Part shown: piece by piece, positions 47,955 through 60,613 of the stretch | Layout: every line of letters begins with the position of its first letter | Numbering within the stretch: position 1 is the stretch's first letter | Source: Armatimonadota bacterium | GTDB taxonomy: Bacteria; Armatimonadota; Fimbriimonadia; Fimbriimonadales; GBS-DC | Reading direction: 5' to 3' | DNA: 64,000 nt | Assembly: GCA_013359125.1 (NCBI GenBank) | Contig: JABWCR010000007.1 | Coordinates: 1 to 64,000 of the forward strand | Notes under the pieces: generated by a model | The model's input: only the letters and a program-made list of their open reading frames with translations | Told to the model about the DNA's origin: nothing | The model's database searches: none | Made by a program: the position numbers and the translations under genes

Positions 47955-48656
47955 ATGACCACCAAGATTTGTATTCTCACCCTCTCTCTTACGCTCGTCG
48001 CGCATTGCTCTGCTCAGACCGCCACCATCGTTGGCAAAGTGAAACTGAACGGAACTCCTCCCAAACCCAAAGCCTTAAACATGAAAGACGATCCCGGCTG
48101 CGTCGCAGCCCATGGCAACAAAACCGTCTACTCCGAAGAAGTCGTCGTTGGCAAGGACGGCGGCCTGCGGTGGTGCTTCGTCTCGATCCGCTCCGGCGTC
48201 AAGGGCGCGTACAAGCCGCCAGCAAAGCCGGTCGTGCTCGATCAGATCGGATGCGTCTACAAACCGCACGTCTTCGGCGTCCAAACCGGCCAAACCATCG
48301 AAATCCGAAACTCCGATCCCGTTTTGCACAACGTGCACGCCGTTACCAAAATCAACCCGCCTTTCAATATCGGACAGCCGCGAAAAGGCATGAAGAACGT
48401 CAAAGTCTTCATGAAGCCCGAACAGATGATCCGCATCAAATGCGACGTGCACCAGTGGATGGTTACCTACTGCGGCGTCGTCGAGCACCCTTTCTTTGAC
48501 GTATCCAAGGCCGACGGTACCTTCGAGATCAAAAATCTGCCGCCCGGCACCTATACCCTGGGCGTCTGGCACGAGAAATTCGGCTCTAAGACCGAACAAA
48601 TCACCGTGAAGGCTGGGGAGCGCAAAACAGTGAACTTCGAGTACGATCAGAAATAG
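47955..48656 (+). CDS. secreted cupredoxin-like protein with C-terminal carboxypeptidase-regulatory-like strand domain
   Basis: A 233-residue exported protein: signal about 1-20 (ending HCSAQ), a first beta domain from ~24 (ATIVGKVKLNGTPPKPK), then a cupredoxin-like region with candidate Cu ligands (DPVLHNVHAVTK His, and CDVHQWMVTYC with Cys/His/Met), and a terminal prealbumin-like domain (FEIKNLPPGTYTLGVWHEKF). Similar proteins are annotated as 'carboxypeptidase regulatory-like/plastocyanin'. It sits 4 nt upstream of ctaA and may belong to respiratory copper handling. Confidence 0.8.
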   Translation: MTTKICILTLSLTLVAHCSAQTATIVGKVKLNGTPPKPKALNMKDDPGCVAAHGNKTVYSEEVVVGKDGGLRWCFVSIRSGVKGAYKPPAKPVVLDQIGCVYKPHVFGVQTGQTIEIRNSDPVLHNVHAVTKINPPFNIGQPRKGMKNVKVFMKPEQMIRIKCDVHQWMVTYCGVVEHPFFDVSKADGTFEIKNLPPGTYTLGVWHEKFGSKTEQITVKAGERKTVNFEYDQK

Positions 48657-48660
48657 CCCA

Positions 48661-49731
48661 ATGGATAATCCGCGCCGCCCGATCGTTTACTGGTTCTCGA
48701 TAGCGACGGCGCTCAGCGCCTTATTCCTGATCGTAGCCGGAGCGGCTGTAACCAGCACCGGCTCGGGCGACGCTGTGCCCGACTGGCCGACCTCGTTTGG
48801 CGGTTGGAATCCCCCCATGCGGGGCGGCGTCTTCTACGAGCACGGACACCGGATGATCGCCATGTTCGTCGGTCTGATGATCCTCGTTCAGTTTGTCCTT
48901 ATGTTCCTCTTCAAGATGCCGAAGAAGCTGAAAGTCTTGAGCGGCTGGGCGCTCTTTCTGGTCATCGTTCAGGCGATCCTCGGCGGGCTCAGAGTATTGG
49001 TCGTCTCGAACGAGGAACTCCAGCAGAGCGCGATGCGCCTCTTTGGCGTCGAGCACATCGATCCCGTCCGCGTGGGAGTGGCCGTTGCTCATGCCTGCCT
49101 TGCCCAAATCGTGCTGACCCTGACCTTTGCAATGGCCTTTATCAGCAGTCGATTCTATCAAGAACTTCAGAAGGGCTTCGTGTTCCATGCCAAGGCGGCC
49201 TCGCCGGTCAAGCGACCTGGGCTGGGTTTAGGCGGACTGATTTTCGCGGTTATTTTCGTTCAGTTGGTCGTCGGCGCTGTCATGCGGCACATCAATGCGG
49301 GCCTGGCCATCCCCGACTTTCCGCTCTCCTTTGGCCAAATAATCCCGCCGTTCGGCAGCCTTCCCAACGATCCGAACGCGCCCATGCCCGTTACAGACAG
49401 GGAGCTGGCCTTTCAAGTCGCCGTTCATTTCGCCCATCGTGTCGGCGGCATCTTGATCGCCATTCTTATCTTCATCAACCTTCTCAACGCTTCTAAGACC
49501 CGCTCTCAGCCCGGCTTTAGCACGGCGGTTTGGATGACGGGGCTCGTCATCGCACAGATCTGCCTCGGCGCAGCAATCATCTGGACCGAAAAGTCGGTGC
49601 ACGTTACTGTAACGCACGTGCTGATCGGCGCGACGCTATTGGGCCTGACCGCGCTCTACGTCATCCAACGCCGCAGTCGCACCGAGCCGATGACCACGAT
49701 CGCAACGACCCAGAAAGAGGCGCTCGCATGA
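48661..49731 (+). CDS. ctaA: heme A synthase
   Basis: Oxidises heme O to heme A for the aa3-type oxidase; inner membrane, eight TM helices, 356 residues. Expected His positions are present: EHGHRMIAMFVG, AHACLAQI, HFAHRVGGILIA and VTHVLIGATL, in a COX15/CtaA-type pattern (SGDAVPDWPTSFG in the first loop). Four-residue overlap with ctaB (ATGA at 49728-49731). Confidence 0.93.
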   Translation: MDNPRRPIVYWFSIATALSALFLIVAGAAVTSTGSGDAVPDWPTSFGGWNPPMRGGVFYEHGHRMIAMFVGLMILVQFVLMFLFKMPKKLKVLSGWALFLVIVQAILGGLRVLVVSNEELQQSAMRLFGVEHIDPVRVGVAVAHACLAQIVLTLTFAMAFISSRFYQELQKGFVFHAKAASPVKRPGLGLGGLIFAVIFVQLVVGAVMRHINAGLAIPDFPLSFGQIIPPFGSLPNDPNAPMPVTDRELAFQVAVHFAHRVGGILIAILIFINLLNASKTRSQPGFSTAVWMTGLVIAQICLGAAIIWTEKSVHVTVTHVLIGATLLGLTALYVIQRRSRTEPMTTIATTQKEALA

Positions 49732-50633
49732 AAGCGACCGCAGTTGCCGATGCGACCGTAAGCCAACGAACCAACCGGCTTCGCCAATACTATCTGCTCA
49801 GCAAGCCGCGAGTGACTCTTCTCGTTTGGATCACCACTTGTGCGGGCCTGCTTACAGGCGTCCTGGTCTCCGGCGCGTCCGTCAGCCCTCTGATCGTCTT
49901 TCACGCCCTGGTCGGCAGTTGGTTCGTGATAGCCAGCGCAAACGCCCTCAATCAAGCCTTAGAGCATCGAGAAGACGGCCAAATGGCGCGCACCGCCAAT
50001 CGACCTGTGCCTGCCGGGCGCGTCTCCTACGACGAAGCCGTCGCCGTCGGCGTCGCATGGGGCGTGATCGGCGTTCTGCAGCTCGCCTTTTTCGTCAATC
50101 TGCTGACGGCCTTTCTCGGCGCTCTCTCCATTGCGCTCTATGTGGGCGCCTACACGCCTCTCAAGAAAGTTACCCCCCTATGCACGGGCATTGGCGCCAT
50201 CCCGGGCGCGATACCGCCACTGGCGGGATACACCGCTGCCACGGGCGAAATCACCCCGCTTGCTTTTCTGCTCTTCCTCGTGCAGTTCTTCTGGCAGTTC
50301 CCGCACTTTTGGGCCATCGCCTGGCTGAACAGAGAAGATTACGCCAAAGCCGGGTTCCTGATGCTGCCCGTGCGCAACAATCCCGAGCGCTCCACAGGGC
50401 TGCTCGCCTTCGTCTATGCGCTGGCGCTAATCCCCGTCGCCGCGATGCCCGCGCTCTATCTGCACCGCCCCGTCCTTTATCTGATCGGCGCAATCCTCCT
50501 CAGCGCCTGGTTCGCCGCCAAAGCCTATCGCTTTGCAAAACAGCCCGACCAATCGACCGCAAAGAAGACCCTGTTAGCGAGCGTTGCGTTTCTGCCGGTT
50601 TGGCTGATCCTCTTGATTCTGGGGGCGGCATGA
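49728..50633 (+). CDS. ctaB: protoheme IX farnesyltransferase (heme O synthase)
   Basis: UbiA-family prenyltransferase, 301 residues, attaching farnesyl to protoheme. The first Asp-rich site is NALNQALEHREDGQMARTANRP (N..D...RT..RP), and YTPLKKVTPLCTGIGAIPGAIPPLAGY is typical of CtaB, with the second motif in FWAIAWLNREDYAKAGF. Overlaps ctaA (upstream) and ctaE (downstream) by ATGA on both sides. The frame is open further upstream, but that part is a shadow of ctaA. Confidence 0.94.
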   Translation: MKATAVADATVSQRTNRLRQYYLLSKPRVTLLVWITTCAGLLTGVLVSGASVSPLIVFHALVGSWFVIASANALNQALEHREDGQMARTANRPVPAGRVSYDEAVAVGVAWGVIGVLQLAFFVNLLTAFLGALSIALYVGAYTPLKKVTPLCTGIGAIPGAIPPLAGYTAATGEITPLAFLLFLVQFFWQFPHFWAIAWLNREDYAKAGFLMLPVRNNPERSTGLLAFVYALALIPVAAMPALYLHRPVLYLIGAILLSAWFAAKAYRFAKQPDQSTAKKTLLASVAFLPVWLILLILGAA

Positions 50634-51259
50634 GCGCATCCGACGCACAACCCATCGTCCCGCCGCCGTCGAGCGATCTCGCGCGAGACCGCCTGCCCGA
50701 TAACTGGCCGAACGCCCAGCCCAATCCCGAAGTGACAACTCGCTTGGGCGTCCTGCTGTTCCTCGTCTCCCTAGGCGCTCTTTTTGCAGCGCTGGCCGCC
50801 ATCTTTCTCTACCGATTGGGCGACCGCCTCGACTATCGCTTCGAGGCGCCCCGCATCCTGTGGGCCAGCACGGCGGCGATCCTGCTCAGCGACATCGCCT
50901 ACTTTCTGGGCCAGCGCGCCATCCGCCGCGATCTAAAGAATATGTTGCTTCTCTGGGTCGGCGGGGCGCTGGCTTTGGGCATCGCCTTCACCACCATGCA
51001 AGCGCTAGCCTGGGTCGAACTGCTCATGCTCGGCATCACCGCACAGTCCAACCCGTTCAGCGGCATGTTCTATCTCTTTACAGCGATTCATGCATTGCAC
51101 GTTGCGGTCGGCCTTGGACTCTTGGTCGCCGTGCTCTATGGCGCCTATCTTCATCGCTACTCCGCCGCCCGCCGCTCGTTCGTCGATCTCACCGGCCTCT
51201 ATTGGCGCTTCCTCAACATCGTCTGGCTGGGACTCTTCTACCTCTTGGTGATTTTATGA
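50630..51259 (+). CDS. ctaE: cytochrome c oxidase subunit III
   Basis: A 209-residue oxidase subunit III with about five TM helices. The end HALHVAVGLGLLVAVLYG...LTGLYWRFLNIVWLGLFYLLVIL is the standard final pair of helices, and the W-R-F-N-I-V-W-L-G-L-F-Y-L-L ending is diagnostic. An N-terminal soluble extension (about 1-35, Pro/Asp-rich) is present. The catalytic subunits I (CtaD) and II (CtaC) are not in the window. Overlaps ctaB and the SCO1 gene by ATGA. Confidence 0.9.
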   Translation: MSASDAQPIVPPPSSDLARDRLPDNWPNAQPNPEVTTRLGVLLFLVSLGALFAALAAIFLYRLGDRLDYRFEAPRILWASTAAILLSDIAYFLGQRAIRRDLKNMLLLWVGGALALGIAFTTMQALAWVELLMLGITAQSNPFSGMFYLFTAIHALHVAVGLGLLVAVLYGAYLHRYSAARRSFVDLTGLYWRFLNIVWLGLFYLLVIL

Positions 51260-51864
51260 ATATTCGTCTCGCGCTGTGGACGCTCCTGATCTGCGTTTTG
51301 GGCGGCGTCTCCGTCGCGTTCTTTCTCAAGAATCGACCGGCGCTCGCCGCCCTGCCTGTGGTCAAATCCGTTCCCGACTTCAGCCTTGCCGGACACGACG
51401 GCAACCCCATCGCCCTCAAAGACCTGAAAGGCAAGGTCTGGGCCGCCGACTTCTTCTTCGCTTCGTGCAGCGGCATCTGCCCGACCATGCAGAAGAATCT
51501 GACCCAGGCGCACAAAGCCTTCGCCAAAGAGCCGAACTTCCGCATGCTCTCCATCACCGTCGATCCCGAGCGCGACACGGTCGAAATCCTGAGCGAATAC
51601 AGCAAAAACTGGGACGCCGACGCCAAAGGCTGGCTGTTTGTAACCGGCGACCGCAAAGCGATCTACCAATTGGCGCGGCACGGCTTCCTGCTGACCGCCG
51701 AACCCGCGCCCAAAGGCGAGGACGGCGGCCCGGACGACTTCATCCATAGCGAAAAGACCGCGCTGGTCGATAAAAAAGGCCAAATCCGAGGCTACTACGA
51801 TGCCACCAACCCGGAAGCCGTCAAGCAGATGATCAAAGACGCCCGCGGACTGCTGGCCGAATGA
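51256..51864 (+). CDS. SCO1/SenC/PrrC copper chaperone
   Basis: Thioredoxin-fold protein that delivers copper to the CuA site of oxidase subunit II. 202 residues: N-terminal TM anchor (about 5-22), CxxxC as C71 and C75 (CSGICPTM), and the distal copper ligand H164 in DDFIHSEKTAL. All three ligands are intact. Joined by ATGA to ctaE and to the DUF420 gene. Confidence 0.94.
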   Translation: MNIRLALWTLLICVLGGVSVAFFLKNRPALAALPVVKSVPDFSLAGHDGNPIALKDLKGKVWAADFFFASCSGICPTMQKNLTQAHKAFAKEPNFRMLSITVDPERDTVEILSEYSKNWDADAKGWLFVTGDRKAIYQLARHGFLLTAEPAPKGEDGGPDDFIHSEKTALVDKKGQIRGYYDATNPEAVKQMIKDARGLLAE

Positions 51865-52286
51865 ACTGGATCGACCAGCTCCCCACCGTCAACGCCTGCC
51901 TCAACTCGACCTCGTTCGTCCTCTTGCTCCTCGGTTACGTCCAAATCCGCAAACGCAATATCAACGCCCATCGCGCCTTCATGGGTTCGGCGTTCGCCGT
52001 CTCCTGCCTCTTTCTGGTCAGTTACCTGACCTATCACTTCTACGCTGGCTCTACTCGATTTCCCGACATTTACCCCTGGCGGACGATCTATTTGGTCATT
52101 CTGCTGACGCATACGGTGCTAGCCGCCGTGCTGGCTCCAATGGCGCTGATCACTCTCTCTCGCGGATTGTCGAAGCGCTTCGACCAGCACCGCCGGATCG
52201 CCCGGATCACGCTCCCTATCTGGCTCTACGTGTCGCTGACCGGCGTGCTGATCTACCTCATGCTCTACCATTGGTTCGCGGCTTAA
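51861..52286 (+). CDS. DUF420-family membrane protein
   Basis: A 141-residue integral membrane protein with four TM helices. It has the family pattern HRAFMGSAFAVSCLFLVSYL, HTVLAAVLAPMALITL and HRRIARITLPIWLYVSLTG with conserved His. DUF420 proteins cluster with cytochrome oxidase assembly genes in many bacteria; the biochemical role is unknown. Last gene of the ctaA-ctaB-ctaE-sco1-DUF420 run; 3' end overlaps the convergent permease gene by 4 bp. Confidence 0.88.
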   Translation: MNWIDQLPTVNACLNSTSFVLLLLGYVQIRKRNINAHRAFMGSAFAVSCLFLVSYLTYHFYAGSTRFPDIYPWRTIYLVILLTHTVLAAVLAPMALITLSRGLSKRFDQHRRIARITLPIWLYVSLTGVLIYLMLYHWFAA

Positions 52287-53416
52287 TCCCGCTCCAGCTC
52301 CCAGTTCTTGGAGATCGCGAACACGACCCAGCCCGCCGCCACGCCGATTAAGTAGCCGTTGGGAAGCCCGACCGCGCAAAGCCCCGTGATCAGCGTCGTC
52401 ATCCAACCGCGCGCGTCCAGTCCCGATATGCTGACGCGGCGCATCAGCGCGAGCCCCTCGATGAACAGCAGCACGCCCAAAATCGCCTTGGGGAAGATCA
52501 TGATCAACGTATGGAACGATTCGCTAAAGAAAAGCCCGGAAATCAGATAAAACAGGCCATAGATGACGACCGAGGCGCCCACCCGCGCGCCGAACGCATA
52601 ATGCCCGGCCATGCCCCCGCTGCCGTGGCAAACCGGTATGCCGCTCAAAAACGGCGAAACCAGATTCATAAAGGAATAGGTCAGGCCCAGCTTTCTCATG
52701 CTGGGCGCCCGCTCGGGAAACAAGTCCTTGGCCAATCGATGCGTGGCCAGCAGGGAATTGGCCAGCGACAACGGCAGCTGCGGCAGCGCCAGCACGACTA
52801 AACCGGTCATGATGTCCGACCATTGCGGCACGTGCGTCTGAGGCAGGGCAAAGCCGACGCCCGCCGCCAACTTCGCCCAATCCATGTCGAATATCCCCGA
52901 GTAGACCGCGCCTAAGCCCACAACAACCAGAGCCGCCGGTACGCGCCGATTGCCCCACAATCCGAACACGAGCGCAATGGAGACCGCCGCCAGCGCCCAT
53001 CCCGCAGCGTCCGACGGGGCGATAAACTCCTTGCCCGCCAGCGTCGCCAAGTTCATTCCCAGGCCGAACTGCACGCCGCGAACCACAGGAGTGGGGATCG
53101 TCTTGGCCAGCCATCCCAGAGCGCCCGAGGCCGCCAAAACCAAGACCATGATCCCAATCGCCAGGCCGCCGCCGTACAGCGTTTCGGGCGAAAGCTTCTG
53201 GGCGATGACGATCGCCGCCATCGCCTTTAACGGCTGCACCGGCATCGGCATGCGGTAAACCAGGCCGGTCATGATCTGCAAAGCGCCAAAGAGGATCAAG
53301 ACGCTGGCTGCATCTAACTTTGCGGCGATGATCATGGCGGCAATGAGAGGCAGATCCGTGCCCAGATCGCCCACGCTGCCAGCCGCCTCCCTGCGGTTCC
53401 ATCCCGTCAACGCCAT
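52283..53416 (-). CDS. MOT1/SulP-related molybdate or sulfate permease
   Basis: A 377-residue integral membrane protein with about ten TM helices. Key motifs of the MOT1 molybdate-transporter family are present: GDLGTDLPLIAAMI, PMPVQPLKAMAAIVIAQKLS, LATLPQLPLSLAN-like (ALPQLPLSLANSLLATHRLA), and CHGSGGMAGHYAFGAR. MOT1 family members import molybdate with high affinity in eukaryotes; bacterial substrate specificity (molybdate or sulfate) is not certain. Transcribed alone, start ATG 53416. Confidence 0.88.
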   Translation of the reverse strand: MALTGWNRREAAGSVGDLGTDLPLIAAMIIAAKLDAASVLILFGALQIMTGLVYRMPMPVQPLKAMAAIVIAQKLSPETLYGGGLAIGIMVLVLAASGALGWLAKTIPTPVVRGVQFGLGMNLATLAGKEFIAPSDAAGWALAAVSIALVFGLWGNRRVPAALVVVGLGAVYSGIFDMDWAKLAAGVGFALPQTHVPQWSDIMTGLVVLALPQLPLSLANSLLATHRLAKDLFPERAPSMRKLGLTYSFMNLVSPFLSGIPVCHGSGGMAGHYAFGARVGASVVIYGLFYLISGLFFSESFHTLIMIFPKAILGVLLFIEGLALMRRVSISGLDARGWMTTLITGLCAVGLPNGYLIGVAAGWVVFAISKNWELERD

Positions 53417-53613: not shown

Positions 53614-53631
53614 ATGGCCAAGGAGCCAACG

Positions 53632-55923
53632 ATGAACCCTAGCGAACGAAACCTGTTCCGGGCGACTGTGGCGGCCACCATCGGCACCCTCGCCCTTGCC
53701 TTCATATCGGCGCAACCCAAGATCGACAACTCGCCCAAGATAGCCTCCGAAGACCGCGACCCGGCCCTCCTATACTCCGCCTCGTGCTCAACGTGCCACG
53801 GCGCGCGGGGCGGCGGAGGCTATTTCAGTTGGGCGATTCCGTATAGATGGGCGCCCGAGATCGCTCACGGTTACTCGACGCCCCAACCCTTGCTGGAACA
53901 GCGGTACCGCTTTGCCGTTCGAAACGGCCCATACCGCCACGGAGACGGTTTCACCAACGCAATGCCGGCTTTCGGCAGAGAGGTCATCTCGGATTCGGAG
54001 TTGGAAGCCCTCGTCCGTTGGCTCATCTACGCGCCGCCGATCGGCGGAGCGGTTCCCAGCGAGGGTGTACCGCCGCCCCAGCGCCCCAACGGTCGCGAGA
54101 TCGTGGTGAGCATTCTGGACGAAGCGCCTTGGTTTATGGACGACGGCACGGACGTCCGCGACCCGTTTAACGATCCTCGGCGCGTCGTGCTCTCGCCCGG
54201 CGACTATATCAAGGTCGTCAATCGAGGCAAAACCTGGCATACGGTAACCAGCGCGAACGGTTTTACCGATACCGGCTTTATCGGCTATTCGGCCAACATC
54301 CCTTGGGAGGAGGTGGGCTATTACTACCTGACGATCCCCGACCTTGTGCCGGGCGCCCAGAAATATTATTGCAAGCTTCATCCTTACATGCAGTTGGAGA
54401 TAGTAACCCCAGAGGCCGACCCAATGCCCTTAACGCGGGCGAGTAAAGTTCCCCTCGGATTGCCTCCTCGAGGCGGAATGGGTGAAGTTTGGGTCGGCCT
54501 ACAAACCTACGACAACGGCGCCGGGCCCAACGGCGCGATCCAGATCATTAACGCCGCCGATTGGAGTTCGACTTTGATCCCGGGCGTAGGGAACAACCCG
54601 CACAATGGCTGGGGCGGCACGGCGGTCGATTGGTACGGCAACCGGCGACGAGTGTCCGTTTGGGCCAATTGGCACGACATTACGGCATCGGTCATCGACA
54701 TTGACACCAAGGAACATTTGGGCGACTTTCCGGTCGGCGCCGCCAGCGCGCACGTGATGACCGCGCCCGGCGTCGTCGATCCCATAACGGGCGCGGATCG
54801 ATGGTTTATCACCCTGATGGGCAGCAACAAGGTGCAGGAGGCGCTGCCGTTGATGGATCTGGTGTCCGGGATGCCGAACCTGCCGCCGATCTCTCAGGCC
54901 AGCGGCCTTCTGGGACAGCCCGCCTTCTCGCCCCACGGTATCTGGTTCTTGGACAACGGGCGATACTTTATCACGGCCAACACGCTGGCCAACACAGCAT
55001 CGCTCTATTCCACCGATAAGGCTTGGTCGGACGAACAGGGCCGAGCGGGCGTCGGCATGGAGCTGGCGCAGGCGTCCACCGGCGGTCGGACGCCTCTGGC
55101 CGCTTCGGTCTTTAACAGCGGCAAGCGCGGCGACCGGCGGTACACGGTCTATACCAACAACGCGGGCACGGACGACATCAGCGTCTATCGGGTCGACACA
55201 ACGCCCGGCTTCGAGAGCATCGTTCGGGTCAACGTGCCGCCGCCGCTGGGCAACGCGGCGGGCAACATCGCGCTGAGCGACCCCATGATGGAACCGATGC
55301 GCTGGGCGCACATGCCGATCCAATGCGCCGTCAGCCCGCCGGACGCCAGCGCGCACGGACGCTACATGGTGGTCTGTAACAAGGCGAGCTTCAACGTTAC
55401 GATCATCGCGCTGGGCGACAATGGGATGCCCGAGGCGATCTATACGTTTCCGTGCGGGCTGGGCTCGCACGGCGTGTCGTTCGGTCGCAGCAACCCGGTT
55501 ACGGGCGGAAAGGGCTACTACGCCTATGTTACCAACACCTTTGAGAACTATATCAGCGTCTATGATTTGGAGCTGCTGGAGCGTCTGCGCAAGTTGGAAA
55601 GGCGCGGCATGGCGCCGGCGGAGTTTTTGCCGGGCGGGGCGCAAGAGCGGGCGATGGTTCGCGGCCATGCGGCCATGATGCTGACCGGCGAGATGGAGGC
55701 CGAAGTTCCCATTACGCTGTTCAGTCCCGACGCGCGGGGTTTGGTGCATGTAGGCGACATTCCGTTGGCCGTGGCGCCGGGAGACGCGCGCACAAGCTAT
55801 CTCAAAGAGCACGTCATGATCGACGTTCCGGGCTTTCATCACACCGTGCTAGATTTGGACTTGAAGACTCAGAGCGGCGCGATGGGCGTGTTCTGCTGGC
55901 CGTTGCCTTCGCCTTGGCGGTAG
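53632..55923 (+). CDS. secreted cytochrome c / cupredoxin / beta-propeller redox protein
   Basis: A 763-residue exported protein with three redox-type modules. Signal about 1-26. Cytochrome c domain with heme motif C52-x-x-C55-H56 (CSTCHG) and axial candidate M111 (NAMPAFG). Cupredoxin with type-1 copper ligands H203 (TWHTV), C247, H250, M253 (YYCKLHPYM). The large C-terminal part (about 285-760) reads as a seven-or-eight-bladed YncE-like propeller (e.g. VDWYGNRRRVSVW, NGRYFITANTLANTASLY, GYYAYVTNTFENYISVYD). The upstream ATG 53614 sits on the tataat, whereas ATG 53632 has aaggag 6 nt upstream. Function unknown; an extracellular electron carrier or oxidoreductase is inferred. Confidence 0.85.
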   Translation: MNPSERNLFRATVAATIGTLALAFISAQPKIDNSPKIASEDRDPALLYSASCSTCHGARGGGGYFSWAIPYRWAPEIAHGYSTPQPLLEQRYRFAVRNGPYRHGDGFTNAMPAFGREVISDSELEALVRWLIYAPPIGGAVPSEGVPPPQRPNGREIVVSILDEAPWFMDDGTDVRDPFNDPRRVVLSPGDYIKVVNRGKTWHTVTSANGFTDTGFIGYSANIPWEEVGYYYLTIPDLVPGAQKYYCKLHPYMQLEIVTPEADPMPLTRASKVPLGLPPRGGMGEVWVGLQTYDNGAGPNGAIQIINAADWSSTLIPGVGNNPHNGWGGTAVDWYGNRRRVSVWANWHDITASVIDIDTKEHLGDFPVGAASAHVMTAPGVVDPITGADRWFITLMGSNKVQEALPLMDLVSGMPNLPPISQASGLLGQPAFSPHGIWFLDNGRYFITANTLANTASLYSTDKAWSDEQGRAGVGMELAQASTGGRTPLAASVFNSGKRGDRRYTVYTNNAGTDDISVYRVDTTPGFESIVRVNVPPPLGNAAGNIALSDPMMEPMRWAHMPIQCAVSPPDASAHGRYMVVCNKASFNVTIIALGDNGMPEAIYTFPCGLGSHGVSFGRSNPVTGGKGYYAYVTNTFENYISVYDLELLERLRKLERRGMAPAEFLPGGAQERAMVRGHAAMMLTGEMEAEVPITLFSPDARGLVHVGDIPLAVAPGDARTSYLKEHVMIDVPGFHHTVLDLDLKTQSGAMGVFCWPLPSPWR

Positions 55924-57552: not shown

Positions 57553-57654
57553 TCAATGCAGGGCGTTTAGGTTGACGTTGTCGAGCGTTAGCTCGTTCAA
57601 CCATTTGATCGTCCTATCGGAAGTTAGACTTTACTGAGGAGGCAGGAAGTCGTG

Positions 57655-58944
57655 ATGCGCATTGCAAGATGCTGTATTGTGGCGACGACGATGCTCGCAG
57701 CCGTTGTCGCGGTCGCTCAGGGGAGTTGCTTTGACCCTCCCAGGCCGCCCGTGATCAAGGCCGACGTGTTCGTAAGAAGTATCATCCTAACCGCCGACCA
57801 GGACGACGGGCTTGACGGCAATGCGGAGCTCTATTTGACCGTGAATGTGAACGCGGGCAAGTGCGGACAAAGAACGAAGTCGTATGAGATCGATTATGAC
57901 TGGGACACTGATCACGCGAGAGGGATATTCGACACGATTTGGTCTCACTTGGAGTGCACGCCTCGGCGCGAAATCACTGTCGGCACGGCGCTGATCGAGG
58001 TCGATTCGGACCTTTCGACCAATATTATGAGCGGTTTGGCCGGAGCGGCCGCAGGGTTGGCGGTTGGCGCTATTGGCGGGCCGGTGGGCGCGATCGGCGG
58101 CGCTGCGGCCGGATTTGTGGTCGGGCTTGTGCTATCGTTGAATGGCAACGACGACCTTGGGGTTGGTTCGGGCGTTGTGCCGGAAAACGGATTGATGAGG
58201 ATTCAATCGCGCGGTCCAGACGGTGGCGCGGATATCTTTATCGATGGGGCGACGACCGATCAGGCGGGCTCTAACTGTCACACTTCTCCACCGGCGCCGC
58301 CGCGAAACCCTCCGAACGTCCGCACGCAACAGGTGTACAATCCTCTGCAAGAATCGTTGCCTTTGGTGCCGATGATCGTTTCTGAATCGGGCAATCCCGG
58401 AAATTTGGACGACGACGAGATCGCCGGTATACGGAAGACTTTGGAACGAAGCGTTCTTGGGCTTGCTGCTCTAGGCGCGGCAACGGAGATCGAACAAGCT
58501 TACGGCTTTTTGGGCGTCAACGAGGCCATCGCTTTGTACCACCAGGCTCGAGCCGCCGATCAGCTCGGCGATTCGGCGGAGGCTCTGCAGAAGTATCGAG
58601 AAGCGTTCTTCGCGGCGGCGACGGCCAACGACAACTACGTGAAGGTGAGAGGCCTGATGCGGCTGCCGTTCCACATCGTTTTGTCTACCGACTGCATGCA
58701 GACGAAGGCGCATCGCAAGCCAAGGTTTGTGATTTTTGCGCCTGGCGGCAGGCTGAAAGAGCGCCTCTCGTTTCACGGTTTGCCTCCGGAGATGGCTCTT
58801 AAACTGCAGCCGCTGGGCGATGGCGCCTATGAACTAGACGTTAGCATAGGAAGCGCTGCGCCCGGACGCTATTTGTTGCACATCGATGCGCACAACGGCC
58901 TGGAGGGCGCCCAGGCGGTCGTCGAGATCGTCGTCAACGGCTAG
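57655..58944 (+). CDS. secreted glycine-zipper protein, paralogue 1 (tail lost)
   Basis: A 429-residue exported protein. ATG 57655 follows aggagg with 11-nt spacing (GTG 57652 is alternative). Signal about 1-22 (ending VAQG). A conserved beta domain (SCFDPPRPPVIKADVFVRSI, then EVDSDLSTNIMSGL) leads to a glycine-zipper hydrophobic hairpin (about 125-160, AGAAAGLAVGAIGGPVGAIG and continuing), a linker rich in Pro, and helical regions (SAEALQKYREAFFAAATAN). The last residues are VEIVVNG. It is 50-60% like the next gene by eye but lacks its dockerin-like tail. Function unknown. Confidence 0.8.
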   Translation: MRIARCCIVATTMLAAVVAVAQGSCFDPPRPPVIKADVFVRSIILTADQDDGLDGNAELYLTVNVNAGKCGQRTKSYEIDYDWDTDHARGIFDTIWSHLECTPRREITVGTALIEVDSDLSTNIMSGLAGAAAGLAVGAIGGPVGAIGGAAAGFVVGLVLSLNGNDDLGVGSGVVPENGLMRIQSRGPDGGADIFIDGATTDQAGSNCHTSPPAPPRNPPNVRTQQVYNPLQESLPLVPMIVSESGNPGNLDDDEIAGIRKTLERSVLGLAALGAATEIEQAYGFLGVNEAIALYHQARAADQLGDSAEALQKYREAFFAAATANDNYVKVRGLMRLPFHIVLSTDCMQTKAHRKPRFVIFAPGGRLKERLSFHGLPPEMALKLQPLGDGAYELDVSIGSAAPGRYLLHIDAHNGLEGAQAVVEIVVNG

Positions 58945-59143: not shown

Positions 59144-60613
59144 ATGACACATTTAACAAGATTCATCGGACTGACGGCGGCCCTCTTGACGGCCGCTAGC
59201 GCAATCGCGCAGACGACTTGCTATGATCCGCCCAGCCCGCCCGTCATCAAAGCAGAGGTAACCGTCAAGAAACTGACCCTTACCAGCGACCAAGATGACG
59301 GATTTGACGGCAACGCAGAACTTGTCTTGACCGTGAACGTGAACGCTGGGGATTGCGGTCAAACGACCAAGAACTACGAGAAGGACGATTTGAACTGGGA
59401 TGTAACCTCGGTCTGGAACATCAATGACTTGATCTGGTCGCATCTCGAGTGCACGCCTAGGCGGTCTATGTCGGTAGGGACGGCACTGATCGAAGTCGAT
59501 TCAGATCTATCGACCAACGTGATGAGCGGTCTGGCCGGCGCCGCAGCTGGATTGGCGGTCGGCGCCTATGGCGGACTGGTCGGCGCGATCGGCGGCGCCG
59601 CCGCCGGATTTGTGGTCGGCTTTGTCCTTTCTCTCAACGGCAACGACGACTTGGGCGTTGGGTCGGCCTCGCTGCCAGAGAACGGCACCGTTACGGTGCC
59701 TTCGCGCGGCGCAGACGGCGGCGCGGACATCGAAATCGAAGCCAAGACCACGCCGCAGGCAGGCAACGAGTGCAACCCGCCCCCGCCGCCTCCGCCCGTC
59801 GAGACGCCCAGCGGCCGAACGCAACAGTCCTACAATCCGCTGCAAGAGGCGCTGCCTTGGGTCGATTCGGTCGCTCCAGAGCCGGGCAATCCTGGTCAAT
59901 TGGAGCCGCACGAGATCGAAGGCATCCAGCGCTCTTTGCGCACCGCCGTGCTGGGAATGGGCGCTTTGGCCGCAGCGGCCGAGATCGAGCAAGCGCAGCG
60001 CATGTTCGGCGTTAATCAGGCCATTGCTCGGTATAACCAGGCCAGGATGATGGAGCAGAACGGCGATTCGCACGGCGCGCTTCAAATGTATCGCGAGGCG
60101 TTCTTTGCTGCGGCGACGGCCAACTTCAACAACGTGCCCGGCGGGCTGATGCGGCTGCCGTTCCATTTGGTGATGTCGAATACCCGAATGGACACGGTTG
60201 TAGGCCGTTCGCCCAAGTTCTTGATGTTCGCGCCTGGCGCGATTCAGAACGTGCAGTTCATGGTGCACGGATTGCCGCCGGAGATGACGCTGAACGTTCA
60301 GCCCTTGGGCCACAACGTTTACATGCTCCATCTGGACGCAAGCGCGGCGCTGCCCGGACACTATCTGATGCATGTGATGGCGAACGACGGCATTCGCGAT
60401 GCGCAAGCGATGGTCGAGATCGTTGTGAACGAGCCGCCTCAGCGGCGCGTGCCCGGCGATGTCAACGGCGACGGTTGCGTAGACGATACCGACCTGGCCA
60501 TGCTGTTGCAGGCGTTCGGAAACGCTGGCGGACCCGAAGACGTGAACCAGGACGGCGTCGTGGACGATACCGACCTGGCCATCGTGCTGGAGAACTTCGG
60601 CACGGGCTGCTAG
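59144..60613 (+). CDS. secreted glycine-zipper protein with dockerin-like tail, paralogue 2
   Basis: A 489-residue exported protein with the same architecture as paralogue 1: signal about 1-22 (ending AIAQT), beta domain (TCYDPPSPPVIKAEVTVKKL), glycine-zipper (about 125-160), Pro-rich linker, and helical region. It continues through VEIVVNEPPQRRVPG into a dockerin-like tail of two EF-hand-like repeats (GDVNGDGCVDDTDLAMLL and DVNQDGVVDDTDLAIVL), ending NFGTGC. The two tail repeats have the D-x-[ND]-x-D-G Ca-binding spacing. ATG 59144 has gaggtg 8 nt upstream. Probably an envelope or surface protein; partner unknown. Confidence 0.82.
   Translation: MTHLTRFIGLTAALLTAASAIAQTTCYDPPSPPVIKAEVTVKKLTLTSDQDDGFDGNAELVLTVNVNAGDCGQTTKNYEKDDLNWDVTSVWNINDLIWSHLECTPRRSMSVGTALIEVDSDLSTNVMSGLAGAAAGLAVGAYGGLVGAIGGAAAGFVVGFVLSLNGNDDLGVGSASLPENGTVTVPSRGADGGADIEIEAKTTPQAGNECNPPPPPPPVETPSGRTQQSYNPLQEALPWVDSVAPEPGNPGQLEPHEIEGIQRSLRTAVLGMGALAAAAEIEQAQRMFGVNQAIARYNQARMMEQNGDSHGALQMYREAFFAAATANFNNVPGGLMRLPFHLVMSNTRMDTVVGRSPKFLMFAPGAIQNVQFMVHGLPPEMTLNVQPLGHNVYMLHLDASAALPGHYLMHVMANDGIRDAQAMVEIVVNEPPQRRVPGDVNGDGCVDDTDLAMLLQAFGNAGGPEDVNQDGVVDDTDLAIVLENFGTGC

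Follow-up and report, generated by a model that had tools for sequence, protein, structure and literature searches.

The window analyzed here, a stretch of 64,000 nucleotides from an Armatimonadota bacterium (genome G000), contains an intact open reading frame on its forward strand (53632-55923) that encodes a 763-residue protein with a cytochrome c domain, a cupredoxin domain and a propeller; the gene is supported by its translation and by full-length homologues. We prefer the start at 53632 to a longer one at 53614 because a Shine-Dalgarno sequence, AAGGAG (53620-53625, + strand), lies 6 nt upstream of the ATG at 53632. Residues 1-27 (53632-53712) read by eye as a Sec-type signal peptide or N-terminal anchor, with a hydrophobic stretch ahead of FISA↓Q, and three homologues (L007, L009 and L010) carry clear AxA↓Q signal peptides. 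AlphaFold2 modeled the whole 763-residue chain with a pLDDT of 89.7 and a pTM of 0.90, placing helices at the cytochrome, followed by an all-beta cupredoxin, then a propeller of seven blades and, at the C terminus, a short beta domain.

In Pfam and NCBIfam searches with the window protein as the lone query, only the cytochrome c was matched (Cytochrome_CBB3, PF13442; residues 42-131, E=2.5e-10), and the cupredoxin and propeller gave no match because they are too divergent for single-sequence searches. Models for Copper-bind, amicyanin, pseudoazurin, Lactonase, YncE and YVTN were matched by relatives, and a profile of 46 relatives compared with known structures recovered the YVTN surface protein 1l0q (1e-40), hydrazine synthase beta (1e-19) and the cupredoxins of amicyanin, pseudoazurin and NirK. 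Foldseek returned generic propellers only and no full-length match to the window protein. Together, the Pfam match, the profiles of the relatives and the AlphaFold2 model uphold the initial annotation, which had read a secreted cytochrome c-cupredoxin-propeller protein from the translation.

The cytochrome c domain (residues 42-133; 53755-54030, + strand) has the CxxCH motif at residues 52-56 (53785-53799) and an axial methionine, Met111 (53962-53964), so that C52, C55, H56 and M111, with the profile match, assign it to the class I cytochromes c. CxxCH occurred by chance in 0.16% of shuffles of the protein, and cytochrome c assembly genes are present in the genome. The cupredoxin domain (residues ~155-260; 54094-54411, + strand) has H203 (54238-54240) and C247-x2-H250-x2-M253 (54370-54390) within AlphaFold2 strands, matching the His...Cys-x2-4-His-x2-4-Met arrangement of type-1 copper proteins in a beta sandwich; the CuA motif CxxxC is absent from it. 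These heme and copper ligands stand at exactly the residues first proposed for them, and all eight are invariant in the alignment of 13 of 13 cytochrome c-fused proteins, their conservation having been chosen beforehand as a point on which the assignment could fail. Of 33 non-fused relatives, 32-33 likewise retain the copper ligands, a figure that for C247, H250 and M253 is partly selected because the patterns used to find relatives contain either C247-M253 or H324. Conservation of H203, the heme ligands, H374, H435 and H613 is independent of these search motifs.

Residues 275-648 (54454-55575, + strand) form a seven-bladed YVTN/lactonase-like propeller, for which modeling of the domain by itself gave a pLDDT of 90.3 and a pTM of 0.90. 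Its Foldseek matches are HzsB, YVTN, lactonase, YncE and cd1 propellers, and its seven four-stranded blades, with the profile match to 1l0q, place it in the YVTN/YncE/lactonase superfamily. A search for an active-site metal in this domain, suggested by the initial annotation, led to a ring of histidines on the inner strands (54601-55470, + strand). H324 (54601-54603), H374 (54751-54753), H435 (54934-54936) and H613 (55468-55470) occupy the inner-strand starts of the second, third, fourth and seventh blades in the model and vary little or not at all across ~45 aligned bacterial and archaeal proteins, although for H324, which lies in a search motif, this is partly selected outside the fused clade. 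Q564 (55321-55323), in the sixth blade, is invariant. H348 (54673-54675), M396 (54817-54819) and K584 (55381-55383) are specific to the subfamily: they are located in strand B-C loops, are invariant in the fused clade except in two Methylococcales and, because of the propeller topology, are expected on the same face as the His ring. The generic YVTN propeller 1l0q has other residues at the ring positions. Conservation and strand position make a metal site at the ring likely, and the metal would probably be copper; the ring could instead be structural or bind another metal. A C-terminal beta domain (residues ~660-763; 55609-55920, + strand; AlphaFold2 strands 673-756) with an invariant H706 is found only in the cytochrome c-fused clade and has no family match.

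A scan of ~85,000 genomes yielded 288 relatives, and the analysis continued with the best 80. Twelve of these 80 have the cytochrome c-cupredoxin-propeller order, and their assignments span about six phyla: one from Armatimonadota (L006), four from Planctomycetota, two from Acidobacteriota, one labeled Uhrbacteria, one each from Methylomirabilis and Nitrospirota, and two from Methylococcales. With the window protein they form a single clade on a long branch (support 100/99), and the fusion thus arose in one clade. The fused homologues show 32-60% identity, and the nearest to the window protein is L006 (59%), from Armatimonadetes ATM1 (G025), which belongs to the same order as G000; these two genomes are the only ones with the full protein among 291 from Armatimonadota. 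A frameshift fusion, misassembly or chance motifs might be suspected in a single draft genome, and some homologues come from metagenome-assembled genomes that are perhaps misbinned (the Uhrbacteria label is probably a binning matter); because the same order recurs on 12 independent homologous contigs at these identities, we give an artefact almost no credence. The two acidobacterial homologues (L011:878-4555 and L013:5908-9540; ~1,210-1,225 residues) additionally carry two IPT/TIG domains and a further cytochrome part with two CxxCH motifs, which brings them to three c-type heme motifs.

Without the cytochrome, the wider family is nearly confined, among the best 80 of 288 relatives, to ammonia oxidizers and methanotrophs, with hosts that include Nitrosomonas, Nitrosospira, Nitrososphaeraceae, Nitrosocosmicus, Nitrosopumilus, Methylocystis, Methylomicrobium, Methylocaldum, NC10 and Methanoperedens. 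The His ring is kept in these relatives. In many ammonia oxidizers a multicopper oxidase part takes the place of the cytochrome, and a separate multicopper oxidase gene often lies upstream. The proteins with a multicopper oxidase part (Nitrosomonas, Nitrososphaeraceae and Nitrosopumilus; for example L060, L018 and L025) share the cupredoxin ligands and His ring with the window protein, but they stand apart on a long branch and have F348 and N396 in place of H348 and M396. As an observation in its own right, this unannotated fusion of multicopper oxidase, type-1 cupredoxin and propeller (820-1090 residues; L060:4396-7179 of Nitrosomonas europaea, L018, L025 and L027) is common to ammonia-oxidizing bacteria and archaea, and most of its members have a Cys pair (CDPGCHGV) by a ring His. 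Searches of viral contigs found no relative, and searches of plasmids found a single one, from Methylocystis.

The concentration of the wider family in copper-monooxygenase organisms, where it is fused to or lies beside multicopper oxidases, would suit a sensor, oxidase or metallochaperone that handles copper for copper-rich periplasmic enzymes, much as AztD does for zinc; one member of group A3 weakly matches the AztD zinc chaperone model. We consider such a role improbable for the window protein, as AMO/pMMO genes occur in only 2 of the 13 cytochrome c-fused carriers tested (G297 and G299) and the fusion to a heme c points to electron transfer, not metal delivery.

The initial annotation knew of no named enzyme with this domain order, and we likewise found no described enzyme with it in Pfam, NCBIfam, the PDB or the literature searched, nor any paper in that literature describing the wide cupredoxin-propeller family. 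Several known systems share parts of the architecture. Cytochrome cd1 nitrite reductase (NirS) also has a cytochrome c followed by an active-site propeller, and cd1 is among the top fold matches; its d1-heme propeller has eight blades and no cupredoxin accompanies it, whereas the window protein has seven blades in the model, a cupredoxin and no PF02239 match, and we rejected this assignment. Heme c-fused NirK, in which one polypeptide leads from heme c through type-1 copper to another metal site, resembles the arrangement proposed for the window protein, but NirK combines a pair of cupredoxin domains with a His3 type-2 copper; with one cupredoxin and no TIGR02376 match, the window protein is not a NirK. 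The nearest propellers in fold (TM up to ~0.6) and sequence are those of HzsB, YncE and YVTN surface-layer proteins, which have no fused cytochrome or cupredoxin and, in 1l0q, no His ring. To our knowledge, none of these is a metal enzyme.

Nitrous oxide reductase (NosZ; TIGR04244/TIGR04246) warrants a closer comparison, since it too is periplasmic and combines a seven-bladed propeller with a cupredoxin, has an Asn-Lys after blade strand B and, in about three blades, carries inner-strand His at matching positions. In hhalign, a profile of seven NosZ proteins aligned in register over blades V-VII (probability 95%, E=3e-8): H435 falls on the CuZ His of SPHG, A490 takes the place of the His in blade VI, and N583-K584 coincide with the Asn-Lys of NosZ. 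In NosZ, blade II supplies two CuZ ligands and blades III, V, VI, VII and I one each, and metal loading is lost in six of the seven variants in which one His is replaced (PMC11573801). The window protein matches those of blades III, V and I, the blade III and I matches resting on low-confidence alignment plus motif; it has lost those of blades II, VI and VII and has gained one His in blade IV. We also considered pairing H324 with the NosZ blade II His pair; hhalign prefers blade III, with low confidence there. Given the outcome of those replacements, we do not expect an ordinary CuZ here, and with about three CuZ positions matched and the others lost, we conclude that the window protein is not NosZ. 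Membership in NosZ clades I/II was rejected on ~3 of 7 CuZ His, no C-terminal CuA CxxxC and a score of 12.4 bits against a cut-off of 625. The clade III enzyme L-NosZ has a lactonase/YVTN-type propeller and a cupredoxin, as does the window protein; its model, NF052460 (cut-off 700 bits), does not match the window protein and scores 19-68 bits against the wide-family members scanned, and this candidate was rejected as well. The L-NosZ-like genes described in PMC11033732, one of which adjoins nosDFLYX genes, are distinct from the window family. A divergent N2O reductase, whether a NosZ or an L-NosZ variant, would account for the same two building blocks, the in-register match, Lys584 at the NosZ Asn-Lys, the weak L-NosZ scores in the wide family and the lack of NosZ in G000, G025, G291, G293 and G294. 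We nevertheless regard it as very unlikely, given how few CuZ His positions are kept, the type-1 copper in place of CuA, the opposite order of domains (propeller then CuA in NosZ; cytochrome c, type-1 copper and then propeller here) and L-NosZ scores that reach at most a small part of the cut-off.

The divergent neighbor of the gene (52283-53416, - strand) encodes a MOT1-type molybdate transporter (PF16983, E=2.4e-53), as had been read from the sequence. Beyond it, genes for cytochrome oxidase assembly (CtaA, CtaB, COX3-like, SCO1-like and DUF420-like; 48661-52286, + strand) were recognized by eye from their translations and serve as context only. The assembly genes lie nearby as initially noted, but their functional link to the window gene is weaker than that annotation implied, with MOT1 in between on the other strand; we looked for a conserved neighborhood around L006 and found quite different neighbors. 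More generally, neither MOT1 nor the assembly genes are conserved around homologues. Elsewhere in the window are two tandem paralogous secreted proteins (57652-58944 and 59144-60613), of which only the second has a dockerin-like GDVNGDG repeat at its end. The genome also encodes two paralogous plastocyanin-like secreted proteins, one (window 47955-48656) preceding the cytochrome oxidase assembly genes and the other (L113:4000-4659) preceding a nitrite oxidoreductase operon.

The surroundings of the homologues vary. In Planctomycetota (L007, L008 and L009), the gene is downstream of a 4Fe-4S NapH/NosR-like membrane protein (PF12801 in L008), and a ThiH/HydG-like radical SAM gene lies immediately downstream of two of these homologues (L007:8252-9280 and L008:8171-9482). 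The gene is flanked by NnrS and SirB2 in L012, and a Methylocystis relative occurs with SirB2, NnrS and a heme-copper oxidase/qNOR-like gene. The Methylocystis clusters (L005:4067-14521 and L022) comprise a YncE-like protein, a sigma factor, a multicopper oxidase, the cupredoxin-propeller, folE, a qNOR-like oxidase, SirB2 and NnrS; that of L005 is on a mobilizable plasmid. The inner strands of the YncE-like protein (P0004) carry His in similar places.

The nitrite oxidoreductase operon of G000 lies outside the window, on a separate contig from the gene (C4:122196-125651; L113:7197-10655), and encodes alpha and beta subunits, a chaperone and a cytochrome; its alpha subunit aligns over its full length with Kuenenia NxrA (PDB 7b04; 1700 bits). 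Full-length Kuenenia-type NxrA is present in G000, G025, G291, G293 and G294, that is, in both Armatimonadota and three of the four Planctomycetota carriers. Within Armatimonadota, NxrA occurs in 10 of 291 genomes, including all three with any cupredoxin-propeller (naive P=3e-5, which ignores shared ancestry). In G293 and G294, a Tat-signal nitrite oxidoreductase operon and moaA are found ~5-6 kb away from the gene. Separately, the NxrA operon suggests that some Armatimonadota oxidize nitrite or reduce nitrate. Among carriers of the fused form, Kuenenia-type NxrA is absent from G292 and from those of Acidobacteriota, Nitrospirota and NC10, and NnrS, present in a few carriers, is absent from most, so there is no universal partner. 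A general denitrification partner was also sought without success: NirK and NosZ are absent from G000, G025, G291, G293 and G294. The molybdenum imported by MOT1 would serve the nitrite oxidoreductase encoded elsewhere in the genome. As for the initial proposal that context points to electron transfer or oxyanion reduction, electron transfer is plausible, and the oxyanion link comes through co-occurrence with nitrite oxidoreductase, not through the window alone.

These genomes also suit an arrangement in which heme c and type-1 copper relay electrons between nitrite oxidoreductase (or another dehydrogenase) and a terminal oxidase, the propeller being a binding platform without a catalytic metal. 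Pure electron carriers have the same cytochrome and cupredoxin ligands, HzsB, YncE and YVTN surface proteins are among the nearest propeller folds, the carrier has a single haem-copper oxidase, and nitrite oxidoreductase requires an electron acceptor. Such a relay or docking subunit seems to us rather unlikely as the whole explanation, because the inner-strand His, Gln564 and the BC-loop residues are conserved beyond what a docking surface would need and the His ring is present even in relatives that have no cytochrome.

Because the metal ligands are kept in relatives and the nearest carriers have a nitrite-oxidizing enzyme, the window protein is probably an undescribed nitrogen-cycle redox protein. 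More specifically, we favor a periplasmic redox enzyme with three sites, heme c, type-1 copper and a propeller metal, whose likely substrate would be a small nitrogen oxide; we advance this reading tentatively, at a confidence somewhat short of probable. In such an enzyme, electrons would pass between a soluble cytochrome c pool and the protein's own heme c (His56/Met111), and from there to the type-1 copper held by H203, C247, H250 and M253. The last step, in either direction, would be exchange with a metal, probably copper, where the propeller channel opens. H324, H374, H435 and H613 would hold this metal, with H348, M396, Q564 and K584 nearby. Like NosZ, cd1 and heme-fused NirK, the protein would couple a relay of heme or copper with a further metal site, yet it belongs to none of these classes. 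The substrate would most likely be nitrite or NO, handled alongside the periplasmic nitrite oxidoreductase/nitrate reductase.

A bolder version of this three-site reading, which we think unlikely, is that of a new enzyme class acting on nitrogen oxides in the periplasm, such as a nitrite/NO reductase or a NO/hydroxylamine oxidase, in which a YVTN propeller contains a copper centre of four to five His that is fed by heme c and type-1 copper. In Armatimonadota and Planctomycetota it would operate beside nitrite oxidoreductase, and it would have cousins in many ammonia oxidizers and methanotrophs, and its site may have evolved separately or degenerated from CuZ. If a propeller copper does act on a nitrogen oxide, the protein would represent a new nitrogen-cycle enzyme class beside NirK, NirS, NosZ and L-NosZ, seated in little-studied phyla that have nitrite oxidoreductase. 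It would show how cytochrome, cupredoxin and propeller parts can be reshuffled into new redox enzymes, and it would give a testable function to a conserved, unannotated family of ammonia-oxidizing bacteria and archaea and of methanotrophs, organisms in which nitrite and NO chemistry has open questions.
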